64,000 bases of DNA from a virus: the IMG/VR virus record IMGVR_UViG_3300029319_008653, positions 29,040 through 93,039 of that record, one strand, 5' to 3'. The notes beneath the pieces were generated by a model, which saw nothing but the letters and a program-made list of their open reading frames with translations, ran no database searches and was not told where the DNA came from. Both the position numbers and the translations under genes were made by a program. Below are positions 8,889 to 64,000 of this stretch, piece after piece; position 1 is the stretch's first letter, and the number at the start of each line of letters is the position of its first letter.

Positions 8889-8904
8889 ATTATATTCTAG
8901 TTCC
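8889..8904 (-). promoter_or_regulatory. GGAACT-N4-TATAAT promoter element
   Basis: On the minus strand GGAACT (8904-8899), four bases, then TATAAT (8894-8889), then 6 nt to the ATG at 8882. The same 16-base arrangement occurs before the genes at 14108, 32363 and 61936. Confidence 0.55.
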
Positions 8905-9953
8905 TATCGTAAGCCAGTAGATTCAAATACATCTCTCGCTACACCAGCAGAAAAGCCTCCTTCTATACCTTTAACAATAACAGATATAGCATTATGACTA
9001 TGAAGACTTTCATTATGAGAAGCTACAATTTTAAAGTCTTTAATACGAGACTCACTATTAAGTTTTTCATATAGTAACCTTACAGCATCTTCTACAAACT
9101 TAAGAAATGCACCGTTCTTTTCAGCAAAAGCTTGCTCATCTTCTCTCTTAACCATAACTTGAGTTTCAGTCTGCAAAGCAGCTAAGCATAGTTCTTGAAT
9201 ATCTTCAATCCATAACATATCGTCAAACTTAACACTAACACGAGCTACACTTCTTTGACTATGAGGTACAGTAGCGCGATTACGATACTTTTCAGCATGC
9301 TCACTTAACTCAAAACTACAAGGACAAGCAGAAGAGTAAACAAAGTCAAAATGAATATATTTCTTAAACTCACCATCTTTAGTAAGATCACCTTCGAATA
9401 CAACATCATAATATTGATAGCCTTCTAAACCACTACGTAAACTTTTTTGCTTGATAGGATATGAAATCTTAAGCATTATACGAGAATCAAATACTTTAAG
9501 ATTTTCTTTATAAGTTTCTAATACATCTTTAATTTTATCAATACTAAATATCTCATCTTTATGATCATAAAAGCTTCTCATAATACGAGACATATTAATA
9601 CCTTTCTTATGAGCTTCTAATGATACACTACCAGTTACACTAGTTTCTAATTCAATAGTTTTACCATCTCTCTTTTTATAATTAAGAGGTAATCTAAAAT
9701 TATGTATACCAACTTGCTGAATAGGTACAGCTGCACCTTGAATTAAACTAGAAGGACCATTTTGAAGATCGGGTAGAGAAGATATATATTTTTTATCGGC
9801 ATTAACATTATCATCATAAACTCTTATAGGAGGAAAATAGCCTTTAGCAAACTCTTCTCCCATAATTTCCTTAGCAATAACATCTTTTTCACCAGTTAGT
9901 TCATCATCTTCACCTAACCACTCATAACCAGTATCTGAAACTTTTTTACTCAT
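8904..9953 (-). CDS. folE2: GTP cyclohydrolase FolE2 (type IB)
   Basis: The protein matches the COG1469 (FolE2/MptA) cyclohydrolases, which open GTP to 7,8-dihydroneopterin triphosphate, the first step towards folate and 7-deazaguanines. Diagnostic segments are VGIHNFRLPL near residue 80, YSSACPCSFELSEHAE with the metal-binding Cys, VPHSQRSVARV, and HNESLHSHNAISVI near the C-terminus. Length 349 residues is somewhat above the bacterial average because of an acidic N-terminal extension. Since QueD, QueE, QueF and a DpdA-like transglycosylase are encoded in the same window, its role is probably deazaguanine supply for DNA modification rather than folate. It has its own TATAAT element 6 nt before the ATG. 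Confidence 0.9.
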   Translation of the reverse strand: MSKKVSDTGYEWLGEDDELTGEKDVIAKEIMGEEFAKGYFPPIRVYDDNVNADKKYISSLPDLQNGPSSLIQGAAVPIQQVGIHNFRLPLNYKKRDGKTIELETSVTGSVSLEAHKKGINMSRIMRSFYDHKDEIFSIDKIKDVLETYKENLKVFDSRIMLKISYPIKQKSLRSGLEGYQYYDVVFEGDLTKDGEFKKYIHFDFVYSSACPCSFELSEHAEKYRNRATVPHSQRSVARVSVKFDDMLWIEDIQELCLAALQTETQVMVKREDEQAFAEKNGAFLKFVEDAVRLLYEKLNSESRIKDFKIVASHNESLHSHNAISVIVKGIEGGFSAGVARDVFESTGLR

Positions 9954-12360: not shown

Positions 12361-13068
12361 ATGAGTTATTTTAAATCAACAAAAATTATTCCTATGGGGT
12401 CTACTGCGTTTCGTCAATGGAGAGCTGGTAGTCATTGTAAATTTATTCATGGTTATCGCTTACAGACTAAGCTTTGGTTTGGTTTAAATAAAGGCGCTAC
12501 GCTTGATGATAAAAATTGGGTCTTTGATTTCGGTGGTTGTAAAGAGATCAAAAAGCTTTTAGAAGATCAATTTGATCATACGTTTTGTGCAGCAGCTGAT
12601 GATCCTGAATTAGAAACTTTTCAACAACTAGATGCTTCCGGTCTAATTCAATTAAGAGTTATGGATGGTGTTGGTATTGAGAAGACTGCTGAATGGGTAT
12701 ATCAAGCTGTTAGTAAGTATGTTAAAGAATCTACTAATGGTAGAGTTAAGATTGATAAGGTAGAAGTTTGGGAACATGAAGGCAATAGTGCTATCTATGA
12801 TACTCGACTTAATACTTTAAATAATACAGATTCTAGTTATGTAGATCATAGAATCTTTAATAAAGATAAGGCACATGAAAAGGCTTTAGAAGAGGATAAG
12901 CGAAGAGAATGCTTATGCAAAGAAGAGTCAGTTGAAGAAAAACCACCAGTGGAAGTAAAGCAAAGCAATCCTACTCCACAAGGACCGGTACCTGCACCTT
13001 CAACATCACAAAATGTTACTAAAGGTGGAATGAGTAACCCATTTGCAGGTACATCATGGGGTGATTAA
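12361..13068 (+). CDS. queD: 6-carboxy-tetrahydropterin synthase-like QueD with C-terminal extension
   Basis: The first 155 residues match the 6-pyruvoyl-tetrahydropterin synthase/QueD family, which converts dihydroneopterin triphosphate to 6-carboxy-tetrahydropterin on the way to preQ0. The blocks STAFRQWRAGSHCKFIHGY (catalytic Cys, zinc His), WVFDFGG, FDHTFCAAADDPE and VEVWEHEGNSAIY appear in order. The usual HGH zinc pair reads HGY, as in the 'FRQWRA' subfamily. A tail of about 80 residues, charged then Pro-rich and ending NPFAGTSWGD, is not part of the enzyme. The downstream small gene follows directly. Confidence 0.85.
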   Translation: MSYFKSTKIIPMGSTAFRQWRAGSHCKFIHGYRLQTKLWFGLNKGATLDDKNWVFDFGGCKEIKKLLEDQFDHTFCAAADDPELETFQQLDASGLIQLRVMDGVGIEKTAEWVYQAVSKYVKESTNGRVKIDKVEVWEHEGNSAIYDTRLNTLNNTDSSYVDHRIFNKDKAHEKALEEDKRRECLCKEESVEEKPPVEVKQSNPTPQGPVPAPSTSQNVTKGGMSNPFAGTSWGD

Positions 13069-14107: not shown

Positions 14108-14851
14108 ATGGGATTAGATACGTTAAGTTTAAGTGATGATAAAGTGTTTTATACTCTAGAAGGAGAAGGTCTGCATATTGGTCAACCTTCTGTTTTTATG
14201 AGATTAGCAATGTGTAATTTAACCTGTAAAGGTTTTGCATCTGAAGATTCTCCGCATGGTTGCGATTCATTCGTATCATGGTCAGTAAAGAATAAATTTA
14301 CTTATGAAGATTTAAATTGGTACTTCGAAGATAATGGATTCGATGAAGAATTAAAGAAAGGTGCTATATTAAAAATAACTGGCGGTGAACCTATGCTGCA
14401 ACAACGTAGACTATTAGAATGGTTACCTACTTTTGAAGAATGGTTTAAGTTTAAGCCTCGTATAGATTTTGAAAGTAATTCAAGTATTATGCCTAAAGAA
14501 GAATGGATTACTGATTGGAATGCTACTTTTACTCTATCTCCTAAGATGAGTAATAATGGAGATCCTGAAGCTCGTAGATATAAGCCCGAAGTATTAAAAT
14601 GGCATAATAGTCATAAAGAAAGTTGTTTTAAGTTTGTTATTAATGAACCTAGTGATCTAATAGAACTAACGCAAAAATATATTGACCCGGGTTATGTTGA
14701 TAGAGATAAAATTTGGTTAATGCCTTGTTGTGGTTCAAGAGAAGAACATACAGAAAAATCTGCTATGGTAGCTGATTTGTGTAAAAGATATCATTTTAAA
14801 TTTAGTCCTAGATTGCAGTTAGTTATTTGGGACATGGCACTAAAAGTATAA
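14108..14851 (+). CDS. queE: 7-carboxy-7-deazaguanine synthase QueE (radical SAM), atypical cysteine motif
   Basis: QueE rearranges 6-carboxy-tetrahydropterin to 7-carboxy-7-deazaguanine using SAM and a [4Fe-4S] cluster. The start YTLEGEGLHIGQPSVFMRL is the typical QueE substrate and cluster approach, and ILKITGGEP the SAM-binding GGEP. The cluster cysteines are Cys36, Cys40 and Cys52, giving CX3CX11C instead of CX3CX2C; spaced variants are known in some QueE clades. Two further Cys (PCCGS) lie near residue 201. The gene leads an operon with polyamine genes, only 1 base from speD. Confidence 0.85.
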   Translation: MGLDTLSLSDDKVFYTLEGEGLHIGQPSVFMRLAMCNLTCKGFASEDSPHGCDSFVSWSVKNKFTYEDLNWYFEDNGFDEELKKGAILKITGGEPMLQQRRLLEWLPTFEEWFKFKPRIDFESNSSIMPKEEWITDWNATFTLSPKMSNNGDPEARRYKPEVLKWHNSHKESCFKFVINEPSDLIELTQKYIDPGYVDRDKIWLMPCCGSREEHTEKSAMVADLCKRYHFKFSPRLQLVIWDMALKV

Positions 14852-43868: not shown

Positions 43869-43998
43869 TGTGTTATTCCTTGTTTTACGGTGCGTTCCTT
43901 CCCCTACCCCATATTTCCAGCATAGAATTATGTACAGAAAATAGGGTACTTCCGCCCTTTCGGGTGAACGAGTTATACATATATTTATTATTATATAG

Positions 43999-44319
43999 AT
44001 GTTCCTGCAAGATTTATTAAATAATTTCGTTATGGAAATATTATCATACACAAGCATTCTGTTTGCATTAGGAGGTTTATTCTCTATGCTTCTCCTTTAC
44101 ACTAATCCTTATTATAAAAATAAAATAGATAACGCTGTAAATGGTTTAAATGTAGCATATGAGGTAGCTCTACAAAAAGCTGAACAGATCGAAATATCAA
44201 AACACAAATGGCTTGAGTCTGAAAAAGTCGGATATGACATCGGTATAGAAATGGCTAAAGAATCTTGGTATAAGTACCATGCTGATAACTGGCGCAGAAG
44301 TAAGAAAAAAGCTGCTTAA
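43999..44319 (+). CDS. Small membrane protein with helical cytosolic tail
   Basis: Start at 43999 or at 44032 (Met12). One transmembrane helix, about residues 14-35 (LSYTSILFALGGLFSMLLLY), is followed by a long amphipathic helix (VNGLNVAYEVALQKAEQIEI) and a basic end (NWRRSKKKAA). The protein of up to 106 residues is followed by a strong terminator. Function unknown; its size and topology would fit a lysis accessory or membrane-remodelling protein. Confidence 0.5.
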   Translation: MFLQDLLNNFVMEILSYTSILFALGGLFSMLLLYTNPYYKNKIDNAVNGLNVAYEVALQKAEQIEISKHKWLESEKVGYDIGIEMAKESWYKYHADNWRRSKKKAA

Positions 44320-57372: not shown

Positions 57373-59142
57373 TTATGCTGGTGGTGGAGGTGCTTCAGGT
57401 ACGCTTGCGTCTGCATTAGCAACTTCTGGGGCTTCAGCATCAGTATCTCCTCCACCTGTATCTGCAGGTCCTCCTCCAAATGCTGGAGGTTCACCAGGTG
57501 CTGCTCCTACATCACCGCTAGCTACTGCCTCGCCAGGAGCTCCTTCAGCTTGAAATTGATCTTTCCAGTTTGGTCCAGCTGCTGCAATCTGTTGTAGCTC
57601 CCATTGAAATTCTGCATCCTTACGTAAAAATTCTCTATTAGCTTTGATCTCTGTTTCATTCCAGCCAAGATATCTCTTTTGAGAGTATGTAGCAGAAACA
57701 AATTCATTAGCTGCTAAGTTATTATAATTAGAAGCCTTTAATTCTAATTTCTGATTTTCTCTTAACTCATAGAAGTTAGTCGGTACATTAAATTCAATAT
57801 GAATATCTTGTTCTTTAATATCATATTTCTTTTTAAGTCCTTTTAATTCTAAATGAGTATAAAAACCATTCTTAAGACCACCTGCCATTTGCTGTTGTAA
57901 TCTAATAATAAATTTAGCAAACTTAAGCTCGTCTCTTAGCATCTCTAAACCATCAGATACATTACCGTCAGGATTAAGTCTATTTGTTGGTACTTTAAGA
58001 GATTTATAAAGCTTATTTACAAAATACATTAAGTCAGATAATTCACCTAAATTAGCACCACCAGCTATCTGTGTTACTGAAGTACCTTCTGAACCTGCTC
58101 TTTTAGCAAACCAGAAACTATCCAGCATAGATTGAGGATTAAATTTCTGAACTGCGCCCTCTTGATTTACATCAAAAGTTTTCTTTGACCAATATTGTTG
58201 TATAAGTTTTCTTAGATAAGCTTCAGCTTTAGGAGGCGACATATTACCTACATCAACGTTAAATATTAATCTCTCAGGAGCTCTTACTAATCTATAAATT
58301 ACAATTGCATCTTCAACTAAGGATAATTGACGATATGCTCTTCTAGCATTCTCTATAAATGGTAATCTAAAGGTTTTATCTTGATTCCATATACCAGAAT
58401 TGACATAAGTTATCTGATTCTGATCCATTGGAATAAGCTCCATCTTAGCTACCTTATCAGGCTTATTAGGGTCAAATATAGGCTTACGTAGTATATAACC
58501 TTTAATAAGCATATTTTGAATATTATCGTAGACTGAATCTACTAAATCAGTTGGTAAAGCTACTACACCTAAAATACCTTCTTTAGCATGCTTCTTATGT
58601 ATAATATGCTCCCAATATAATTCTCCTTCAACGAGTAGCTGTCTAAAGTACTCAAAACCTTTCTTTTCAAAGTTAAAGAAGTCTATATATTTTTCAAACT
58701 CTTTTTCAATTGTTAATTGATCTAACTCGCTTAGTTCTGTATTTCTAAATTCAAGATTAATTATATTACCCTTAGAATCAGGGTTAATAGTTTCATCGCA
58801 TATTTCATCTAAAGCATCTGATATCTCAGCAAAAGAAGCCATTACTCTATAATCACGTAAACGACCGCTTTTGTTCTCTTCAATATTAGCATATACTAAT
58901 TCAGCATACTGACCATCAGTACTAATTTGACCTGCAGCTATATTATTATATTCATTGTTATAAAATATAGATTGATTAGCAAGTGCTTCAGTTCTTCTTA
59001 CACCTGTATCTTGAAAGACGTCATATTTAGGATTTAATTCCTTCATCAAGTCCTGTGCATTAGGTGATTGATATGGTAGCTTATTAGCTATACTTTTAAA
59101 AATCCCTGACTGAAAAAATCCTCTTTGCTCTGAATCTGCCAT
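57373..59142 (-). CDS. 20: Portal vertex protein gp20
   Basis: The 589-residue protein is gp20-like: YRVMASFAEISDALDEICDE, TINPDSKGNIINLEFRNTEL, FRQLLVEGELYWEHIIHKKH, IDNI-type ALPTDLVDSVYDNIQN, YRLVRAPERLIFNVDVGNMS, and TSVTQIAGGANLGELSDLMY, in the usual order. It forms the dodecameric ring through which DNA enters and to which the neck attaches. The C-terminal 60 residues are low-complexity (Gly/Pro/Ala/Asp), as often seen in marine versions. Late-type AAATAAATATAC before the start. Confidence 0.93.
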   Translation of the reverse strand: MADSEQRGFFQSGIFKSIANKLPYQSPNAQDLMKELNPKYDVFQDTGVRRTEALANQSIFYNNEYNNIAAGQISTDGQYAELVYANIEENKSGRLRDYRVMASFAEISDALDEICDETINPDSKGNIINLEFRNTELSELDQLTIEKEFEKYIDFFNFEKKGFEYFRQLLVEGELYWEHIIHKKHAKEGILGVVALPTDLVDSVYDNIQNMLIKGYILRKPIFDPNKPDKVAKMELIPMDQNQITYVNSGIWNQDKTFRLPFIENARRAYRQLSLVEDAIVIYRLVRAPERLIFNVDVGNMSPPKAEAYLRKLIQQYWSKKTFDVNQEGAVQKFNPQSMLDSFWFAKRAGSEGTSVTQIAGGANLGELSDLMYFVNKLYKSLKVPTNRLNPDGNVSDGLEMLRDELKFAKFIIRLQQQMAGGLKNGFYTHLELKGLKKKYDIKEQDIHIEFNVPTNFYELRENQKLELKASNYNNLAANEFVSATYSQKRYLGWNETEIKANREFLRKDAEFQWELQQIAAAGPNWKDQFQAEGAPGEAVASGDVGAAPGEPPAFGGGPADTGGGDTDAEAPEVANADASVPEAPPPPA

Positions 59143-62673: not shown

Positions 62674-63402
62674 TTACAATCCAAGATACTTTAAGAGTTC
62701 TAATTTCTTACTCTCTCGATTATCGCTAATATTATGAGAGGAGTGTTCCTTTCTCCATACATAAATACTTGTATCTCTTATTACATACATTTTATGTTCC
62801 GTATTAAATTCTTTATTTTTATCTAAAAATGATTCTACAAGCTGTACGTCCTGACCTTGCTTTGAATTAGGAAAATGAAAATCATAATTAATTCTCCCCA
62901 TATGTAAAGAGATAGCACCATGATGTACATCACTAATAAGAACGGAACGATCTGTCCAAATATTATCAACGCATTCAATAGTGCAGTCTTTAAAATTAAT
63001 ATTAGTATCTAATGCATCTTCATTATAGGATTGACCGTGAAGTATCTGAGCAGCATTTAATTGTTCAAATGCAGTTATGATTAATTTATTTCTATCCTTA
63101 TGAGTTAAATCGTCGCAATCTTGAAACGATATTATATCTGTATTACAATGATCATAAGCGATTGATCTATTTTTACCAGCTCGATAAGCGAAGGTAAATG
63201 TTTTTATAATAGGAACAATATCATTCTTATATAATAACTCTCTACATTTCTCTATTATATTATCATCATCTTCAGAAGAGTAATCACTTACTATAATAAT
63301 AACTTCTTTCGGCTTTACAGACTGCTTTAAAATATTCTCGATAGCAGAAGGCAAATAGCATACATGCCTTCCAGCTACAGGTATAGCATTAGTTAAAGTC
63401 AT
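62674..63402 (-). CDS. Family-2-like glycosyltransferase
   Basis: The protein has a GT2 start (PSAIENILKQSVKPKEVIII, VSDYSSEDD), the donor-site RAGKNRSIAYDHCNTDIISF and the metal motif FQDCDDLTHKDR. The 240-residue length covers one catalytic domain. I use the ATG at 63402 (MTLTNAIPVAGRH) rather than 63417 because a GGAACT-N4-TAAATA element ends 5 nt before it and would overlap the longer start. It is separate from the two large glycan regions. Acceptor unknown. Confidence 0.7.
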   Translation of the reverse strand: MTLTNAIPVAGRHVCYLPSAIENILKQSVKPKEVIIIVSDYSSEDDDNIIEKCRELLYKNDIVPIIKTFTFAYRAGKNRSIAYDHCNTDIISFQDCDDLTHKDRNKLIITAFEQLNAAQILHGQSYNEDALDTNINFKDCTIECVDNIWTDRSVLISDVHHGAISLHMGRINYDFHFPNSKQGQDVQLVESFLDKNKEFNTEHKMYVIRDTSIYVWRKEHSSHNISDNRESKKLELLKYLGL

Positions 63403-63407
63403 AAAAA

Positions 63408-63423
63408 TATTTAACATAGTTCC
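63408..63423 (-). promoter_or_regulatory. GGAACT-N4-TAAATA promoter-like element (minus)
   Basis: GGAACT at 63423-63418, ATGT, TAAATA at 63413-63408, then 5 nt to the ATG at 63402. It is the innermost copy of the GGAACT motif that recurs through the noncoding tract to its right. Confidence 0.45.
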
Positions 63424-63935
63424 TGTATAAGGCCATTAAGATATTAGTATCGCGCCGCAGGCGCAAAAAAATTTTCCGCGCGCCATATGCCGCTCTTCGG
63501 CGGATAAACGTTAAAGTTCCTTAATATGTAATCGCGGAACAATCCCCAGAGAGGGAACAAATCGCAATAAACAATATGGGAACTATCTGATAGCTGATAT
63601 TCGGAACTATCTGAATATTTGTAAGAGGGAACTTATACGCCTTCGGCGTGCGCAGAAAAGGGAACTCCTATATAAGGGAACTATTTTTCGAGCTAAAAAA
63701 ATTTGGCATGGGGCCTCCGGTTCGGGAACTAAAGTTCTCTATACATAGAGAATATAAATGGCGTGCTCTCTCAGCGCGGGTTCTCTGCTGAGCGGGTTCC
63801 TTATATGAGAAGAAGGCCTTCTCTCGAAGACCTTTCTTGCTCTCTCTACTGCGCTTTCGGGCGCGCTATGGCTTTGCTTTGCCACTAGTTAACTAGCTAC
63901 CAGGTTTATACTCCCAGGGCCCAGATCGTATCAGG
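63424..63935. other. Noncoding tract with GGGAACT repeats and many short hairpins
   Basis: No credible protein frame is present. Plus-strand copies of GGAAC(T) start at about 63536, 63554, 63579, 63603, 63628, 63661, 63677 and 63725, four of them as GGAACTAT; consecutive gaps of 25, 24 and 25 bases occur in the middle. GC-rich hairpins include GCGCC-GCA-GGCGC (63452-63464), GCCG-CTCTT-CGGC (63489-63501), ACGCC-TTC-GGCGT (63637-63649), TTCTCTATACATAGAGAA (63735-63752) and the palindrome AGAAGGCCTTCT (63811-63822). Base composition is GC-richer than the rest of the window. Candidate roles are an origin, a regulatory array or a structured RNA; none is proved. Confidence 0.6.
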
Positions 63936-63998
63936 TTAGCATGCAACCTCCTCTTTATACTTAGCCTTTTTAACTTCGTCTATATACCAAGAGCGTTC
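63936..63998 (-). CDS. Possible C-terminal end of a gene cut by the window edge
   Basis: On the minus strand a frame open to the right edge encodes ERSWYIDEVKKAKYKEEVAC and then stops at 63936. The amino-acid composition is protein-like, but only 20 residues are visible, so it may be chance. If real, its product would be encoded leftwards into the repeat tract. Confidence 0.3.
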   Translation of the reverse strand, partial: ERSWYIDEVKKAKYKEEVAC

Positions 63999-64000
63999 TC

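Follow-up and report, generated by a model that had tools for sequence, protein, structure and literature searches.

Introduction

PeSL (promoter early stem-loop) cassettes have been described in T4-type phages, where they occur in shuffling regions (PMC4503421); the middle promoters of T4 carry a MotA box, TGCTTtA, placed 12 +/- 1 bp from the -10 (PMC2988021); and in cyanomyoviruses a hyperplastic, or hypervariable, region lies between g15 and g18 (PMC2984593). The locus presented here recalls each of these in some respect. With PeSL cassettes, as described in PMC4503421, it shares a phage-specific promoter combined with stem-loop or terminator motifs, short intergenic stretches, and a location in a region of gene shuffling; with the MotA promoters it shares a short upstream box followed by a sigma70-type -10; and with the g15-g18 region, the presence of variable accessory genes beside a g15-like gene. 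Our reading, to which we give a probability of about 0.55, is that this tract would be an intergenic regulatory junction, in which multiplied promoter boxes are combined with terminator-like hairpins and a conserved boundary element.

The contig and the setting of the tract

The window, that is, the whole stretch of DNA analysed (64,000 nucleotides), comprises bases 29040-93039 of an IMG/VR virus record (IMGVR_UViG_3300029319_008653) totalling 93,039 bases. The contig is that of an uncultured T4-like marine myovirus, in which T4-type portal, head and sheath-stabiliser genes are present (phrog_213, phrog_138, phrog_227), and the tract at 63418-64000 forms its terminal 583 nt (G000:C1:92457-93039). 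Elsewhere in the window, folE2, PTPS and QueE-like genes (8904-9953, minus; 12361-13068, plus; 14108-14851, plus) suggest the synthesis of 7-deazaguanine (preQ0), perhaps for DNA modification. For comparison, 80 relatives with 49-80% identity (best segment) in the portal were collected from virus contigs, these being partial and mutually related. The portal found no match among the prokaryote genomes searched for a host, BLAST of the tract against named phages gave no match, and the glycosyltransferase used as a query recovered no relatives. The features on which the argument draws are the following.

57373-59142, minus strand: portal gene
63408-63423, minus strand: weak GGAAC promoter (GGAAC-TATGT-TAAATA) directly before the glycosyltransferase-like gene at 62674-63417, assigned from its spacing to the ATG
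63452-63503, minus strand, at the tract's opposite end: hairpin CCGCCGAAGAGCGG with a T-run and the palindrome GCGCCTGCGGCGC, a motif also found before the next promoter in relatives
63536-63729, plus strand: array (194 nt) of eight GGAAC boxes, mostly GGGAACT(A), six of them GGGAAC; seven of the eight lack a -10 at promoter spacing
63661-63676, plus strand: GGAAC-TCCTA-TATAAG, the sole box of the array with a near-match -10 at promoter spacing (one mismatch to TATAAT)
63689-63793, minus strand: conserved single-copy noncoding element, block 1 ACCCGCGCTGAGAGAGCACGCCAT..TATAGAG and block 2 CCCATGCCA-AATTTTTTT (alignment A4 and profile R1)
63770-63792, minus strand: hairpin CUCAGC/GCUGAG with loop AGAGAACCCGC at the 5' end of the conserved element (MFE fold)
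63810-63836, minus strand: hairpin AAGGTCTTC..GAAGGCCTT, terminator-like, following the truncated gene upstream (from the sequence, compared with L027, L008, L035 and L221)
63936-64000, minus strand: 3' end (..ERSWYIDEVKKAKYKEEVAC*) of a gene that the end of the contig truncates, with an intact 171-aa homologue before the conserved element in L221

The preliminary description had presented the tract as GC-richer, abundant in short GC-rich stems, and set in a window otherwise nearly free of noncoding DNA, and all of this agrees with the counts. ORFs of at least 60 aa are missing from just 4.2% of the window, the longest such gap being the tract itself; its GC content is 45% against 31% for the window, placing it second among 992 stretches of 512 nt; three perfect, GC-rich stems lie in it, where a 512-nt stretch has 0.4 on average; and its folding energy departs from that of shuffled sequences by z ~ -3 on both strands.

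The corresponding genomic junction was found in relatives, where the adjoining genes vary, and as far as sequence comparison can tell it is the edge of a variable gene block, beside the structural genes for the g15-like tail sheath stabiliser and the portal. About 12 contigs of the portal relatives end within a 0.7-kb interval, between 4.2 and 4.9 kb upstream of the portal, as would be expected if a region variable in the population lay past the junction. A fixed genome end or physical terminus was considered and rejected, because the contigs break at scattered positions around the conserved element.

The array and the promoter-like motif

At least eight direct copies in about 200 bases, with three consecutive gaps of 24-25 bases, had been reported in the preliminary description, and so they were recovered: eight GGAAC boxes lie on the plus strand within 194 nt, starting at 63536, 63554, 63579, 63603, 63628, 63661, 63677 and 63725, at successive spacings of 18, 25, 24, 25, 33, 16 and 48 nt. 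Among 2000 dinucleotide-preserving shuffles of the tract none reached eight GGAAC per 200 nt (the maximum was 3), and none reached the six GGGAAC. GGGAACT is not enriched window-wide (6 observed, 4.2 expected), five of the six copies falling inside the tract. As the contig stops 271 nt beyond the array, no gene is known downstream of it in its own direction (plus), a point against the regulatory reading. GGAAC has been amplified at this place mostly without a -10, and is flanked by terminator-like hairpins and by the conserved element of some 110 nt.

Exact GGAAC-N5-TATAAT sites occur five times in the window where 0.1 would be expected, and the genes that carry a GGAAC promoter include those of a DNA-binding protein, a QueE-like protein and a PNK-like phosphatase; one such promoter (43990-44005, minus) lies 17 nt upstream of a glutamine riboswitch (both within 43889-44005, minus). 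Seven clade records contain 40 such sites against none for the reversed pattern, and in close relatives the gap between GGAAC and TATAAT is 5 nt in 84 cases, some of these copies being redundant, against 0-5 cases at other gaps. The logo of 86 unique sites reads (A/G)GGAAC(T/A)nnnnTATAAT-N6-ATG, with no conserved hexamer in the 12 nt examined further upstream of GGAAC. These sites establish GGAAC as the upstream box of a promoter-like motif specific to the clade, one that is rare in relatives of 49-63% identity and of which no description was found in the literature searched. The ATG, usually 6 nt downstream of TATAAT, is enriched at the expected +1, and since its A stands at the expected transcription start, the messages from these promoters are probably leaderless.

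T4-like late promoters (TATAAATA/NATAAATA) are also present in this contig, close before the ATG of many genes, and form a separate class without the GGAAC box. Both GGAAC-N5-TATAAT and TATAAATA stand very near the ATG at many genes, for instance at 14108, 36530 and 54290, so that the predicted mRNAs would be leaderless or almost so, which may be general across the clade.

The identity of the box bears out the earlier statement that the repeated unit equals the upstream box of a promoter class, and, the repeat being the promoter box, one factor could bind both, as had been suggested. This is well supported at the level of sequence, the relatives having bare boxes concentrated in noncoding DNA and ahead of such promoters: bare GGAAC occurs 116 times in the noncoding DNA of the clade, about six times as often as eight permuted words, which average about 20, and in the 200 nt upstream of 83 promoters there are 55 boxes on the same strand and 34 on the opposite one against 12 per control word, figures that are inflated by the non-independence of related contigs.

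Boxes in related phages

The forms that the boxes take in other phages suggest how they could have arisen. In L024 and L030 they are tandem GGAAC-N5-TATATT-A units, each repeating the 17-nt core of the promoter; L069 has seven perfect boxes in succession at a 16-17-nt period with diverged spacers; and in L048 and L214 three boxes stand before a promoter. Taken as a series, these would point to growth by duplication of the promoter core, followed by loss of the -10 with the box being kept. Arrays comparable to that of the window are found in L069 and L048. From reading the sequences, several boxes beside the element in L015, L045, L048 and L214 fall within a small lipoprotein ORF on the opposite strand, and are thus coding coincidences. 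ORFs of this lipoprotein-like kind lie opposite the element in L015 at ~135-258 (MKFLCIILLTVFLTSCKITPG...), in L041 at ~2300-2420 and in L035 at ~1800-1940, all on the minus strand, and their product could be a spanin-like lysis protein. The array region of L069 contains three GGAAC promoters on the opposite strand (1029, 1094 and 1185, minus), without a start codon at +1, from which noncoding transcripts are possible. The distance from the last bare box to the promoter is 58 nt in two groups of box arrays (L024/L025/L027/L030 and L048/L214), a regularity not relied on because these are only two independent loci.

A scan of viral contigs for the array pattern returned 120 stretches, mostly with multiple-of-three spacings as in coding repeats, and none with the promoter; a stricter scan for array plus promoter returned three, of which only L085 (= L069) is relevant, the other two (L206 and L207) looking like chance or coding repeats.

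The conserved element

Conservation in related phages had been proposed as a check, and its outcome is divided: the array is not conserved in place, being found in a single contig, at the contig end, and missing from the corresponding place in L008, L021, L035, L041 and G001, whereas the neighbouring element of about 110 nt is conserved. Its blocks across relatives are ACCCGCnCTGAGAGAnCACGCCATnnGAA..TATAGAG and CCCATGCnA-A/T tract-GCGCGC. With profile R1 the element scores 65 bits in the window, and another 23 locus records match at an E value of 3e-5 or lower, the sequences from which the profile was built matching by construction; it occurs once per contig in these 24 locus records, from about 12 phage lineages, and was not found by the profile in the more distant relatives fetched. 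Neither the element nor the tract has a match in Rfam (Rfam 15, gathering score), and the tRNA search found none in the tract.

In most records a small gene with its terminator-like hairpin precedes the element, which lies on the margin of the variable block, some 3-6 kb upstream of the portal; in L027, L008, L035 and L221 a strong hairpin with a U-run stands at the corresponding place after the upstream gene. In G001 the intact 171-aa homologue of the window's end gene is followed by the element and then by a convergent run of other genes, and as this genome has the element without any array, array and element are separate things. In L008 (905-1230) and L021 (1145-1440) a second noncoding stretch of about 300 nt, alike in both, comes after the element and occupies the place that boxes take in other relatives.

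Interpretation and alternative explanations

The tract could be given other explanations, one being that it is an assembly artefact at a contig end, or mere chance. It does reach the contig end, and its array is known from one contig; nevertheless, the element, the end gene and the terminator motif recur in independent contigs, chance is excluded by the shuffles, and comparable arrays exist in L069 and L048, which makes this explanation highly improbable. We also find it distinctly unlikely that the array, together with an AT-rich and GC-palindromic element, is a replication origin, where an initiator would open the DNA, or else transcription from a box promoter, as at those T4 origins that depend on a MotA-type promoter. 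In keeping with an origin are the direct repeats, the A/T tract beside GCGCGC and one conserved single-copy element per genome, and a T4 review cites studies of MotA in T4 replication and of an origin requiring a promoter. However, it is the element that is conserved and not the array, changes in GC skew track gene direction with no special break at the tract, and GGAAC is accounted for by promoters elsewhere in the genome. That the boxes titrate a regulator as DNA, or capture an RNA-binding protein in the loops of RNA hairpins in the manner of a CsrB-like sponge, would suit the seven boxes without a -10, the placing of some boxes in small loops (ATATTC-GGAACTATCT-GAATAT, around 63597-63618) and the boxes kept in L069 while their spacers diverged; yet the sites are few for titration, and the box is shared with promoters, where it would not be transcribed, so that recognition as DNA is favored over an RNA sponge, and we regard the idea as improbable.

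Another view, unlikely in our judgment, takes the element for a structured noncoding RNA or leader read in the direction of the portal gene (minus strand), and holds the boxes to be incidental to it. In most of 11 relatives a two-tier hairpin can be drawn 5' of ACGCCAT, its second lower pair varying among C-G, G-C, G-U, U-A and U-G, and the complementarity of its lower stem was matched by 28 of 5000 permutations, a value that is optimistic, as the sequences are related, and that applies to a register picked after inspection. Against this, RNAalifold gave no consensus structure on either strand, a long-range stem, CCCGCTCT..AGAGCGGG, was rejected because, though strong in L214, L035 and L041, it shows no covariation over the set, Rfam has no match, and in relatives the element comes after a terminator-like hairpin with a U-run. 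The structured RNA of the preliminary description thus retains modest support from one hairpin and none from an overall consensus fold.

Returning to the regulatory junction, GGAAC would be recognised by a phage or host transcription factor, or by the RNA polymerase holoenzyme itself; the boxes would have multiplied by tandem duplication of the 16-17-nt promoter core, providing extra sites that recruit the GGAAC-binding factor, or concentrate it locally, near promoters; and the hairpins would insulate neighboring gene cassettes that are often swapped. The conserved element would probably be a fixed boundary signal, a terminator or processing region and possibly a structured RNA. A bolder proposal, which we advance tentatively, is twofold: that the element is a phage regulatory RNA, or an origin-like DNA signal, of an undescribed kind, fixed at the border between the core and accessory genes of the clade, and that the boxes are the sites of an undescribed phage transcription factor acting at about -20, on mRNAs that are leaderless for the most part. 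Taken as a whole, the findings provide a regulatory code that can be read from the sequence (box, -10, start codon at +1) for an uncultured T4-like marine clade, together with a conserved noncoding landmark for the place where accessory genes are exchanged, both testable by metatranscriptomes with no need for host culture.

Comparison with known systems

The portal is only about 31% identical to those of cultured cyanophages, and the gene order is seen here only up to the tract, in which the locus differs from the g15-g18 region of cyanomyoviruses. The MotA box lies 12 +/- 1 bp from the -10 and GGAAC 5 bp from it, and consequently this is not a MotA promoter; the MotA C-domain (PF09158) had no match in seven partial records, in a search where the control genomes gave no match either. 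The likeness to PeSL extends to the adjoining of promoter and stem-loop, as a terminator or palindrome stands directly before the GGAAC promoter in L045, L015, L024 and L030 and at 63408-63503 of the window. However, the T4-type early promoter has a GTTTAC-like -35, in contrast with GGAAC 5 bp from TATAAT; the cassette sequence is repeated through the genome, while here the element is single-copy and only the promoter box and the type of hairpin recur; and here the boxes have been multiplied without their -10. Because of its differing promoter type and single-copy element, the locus is not classed among these cassettes.
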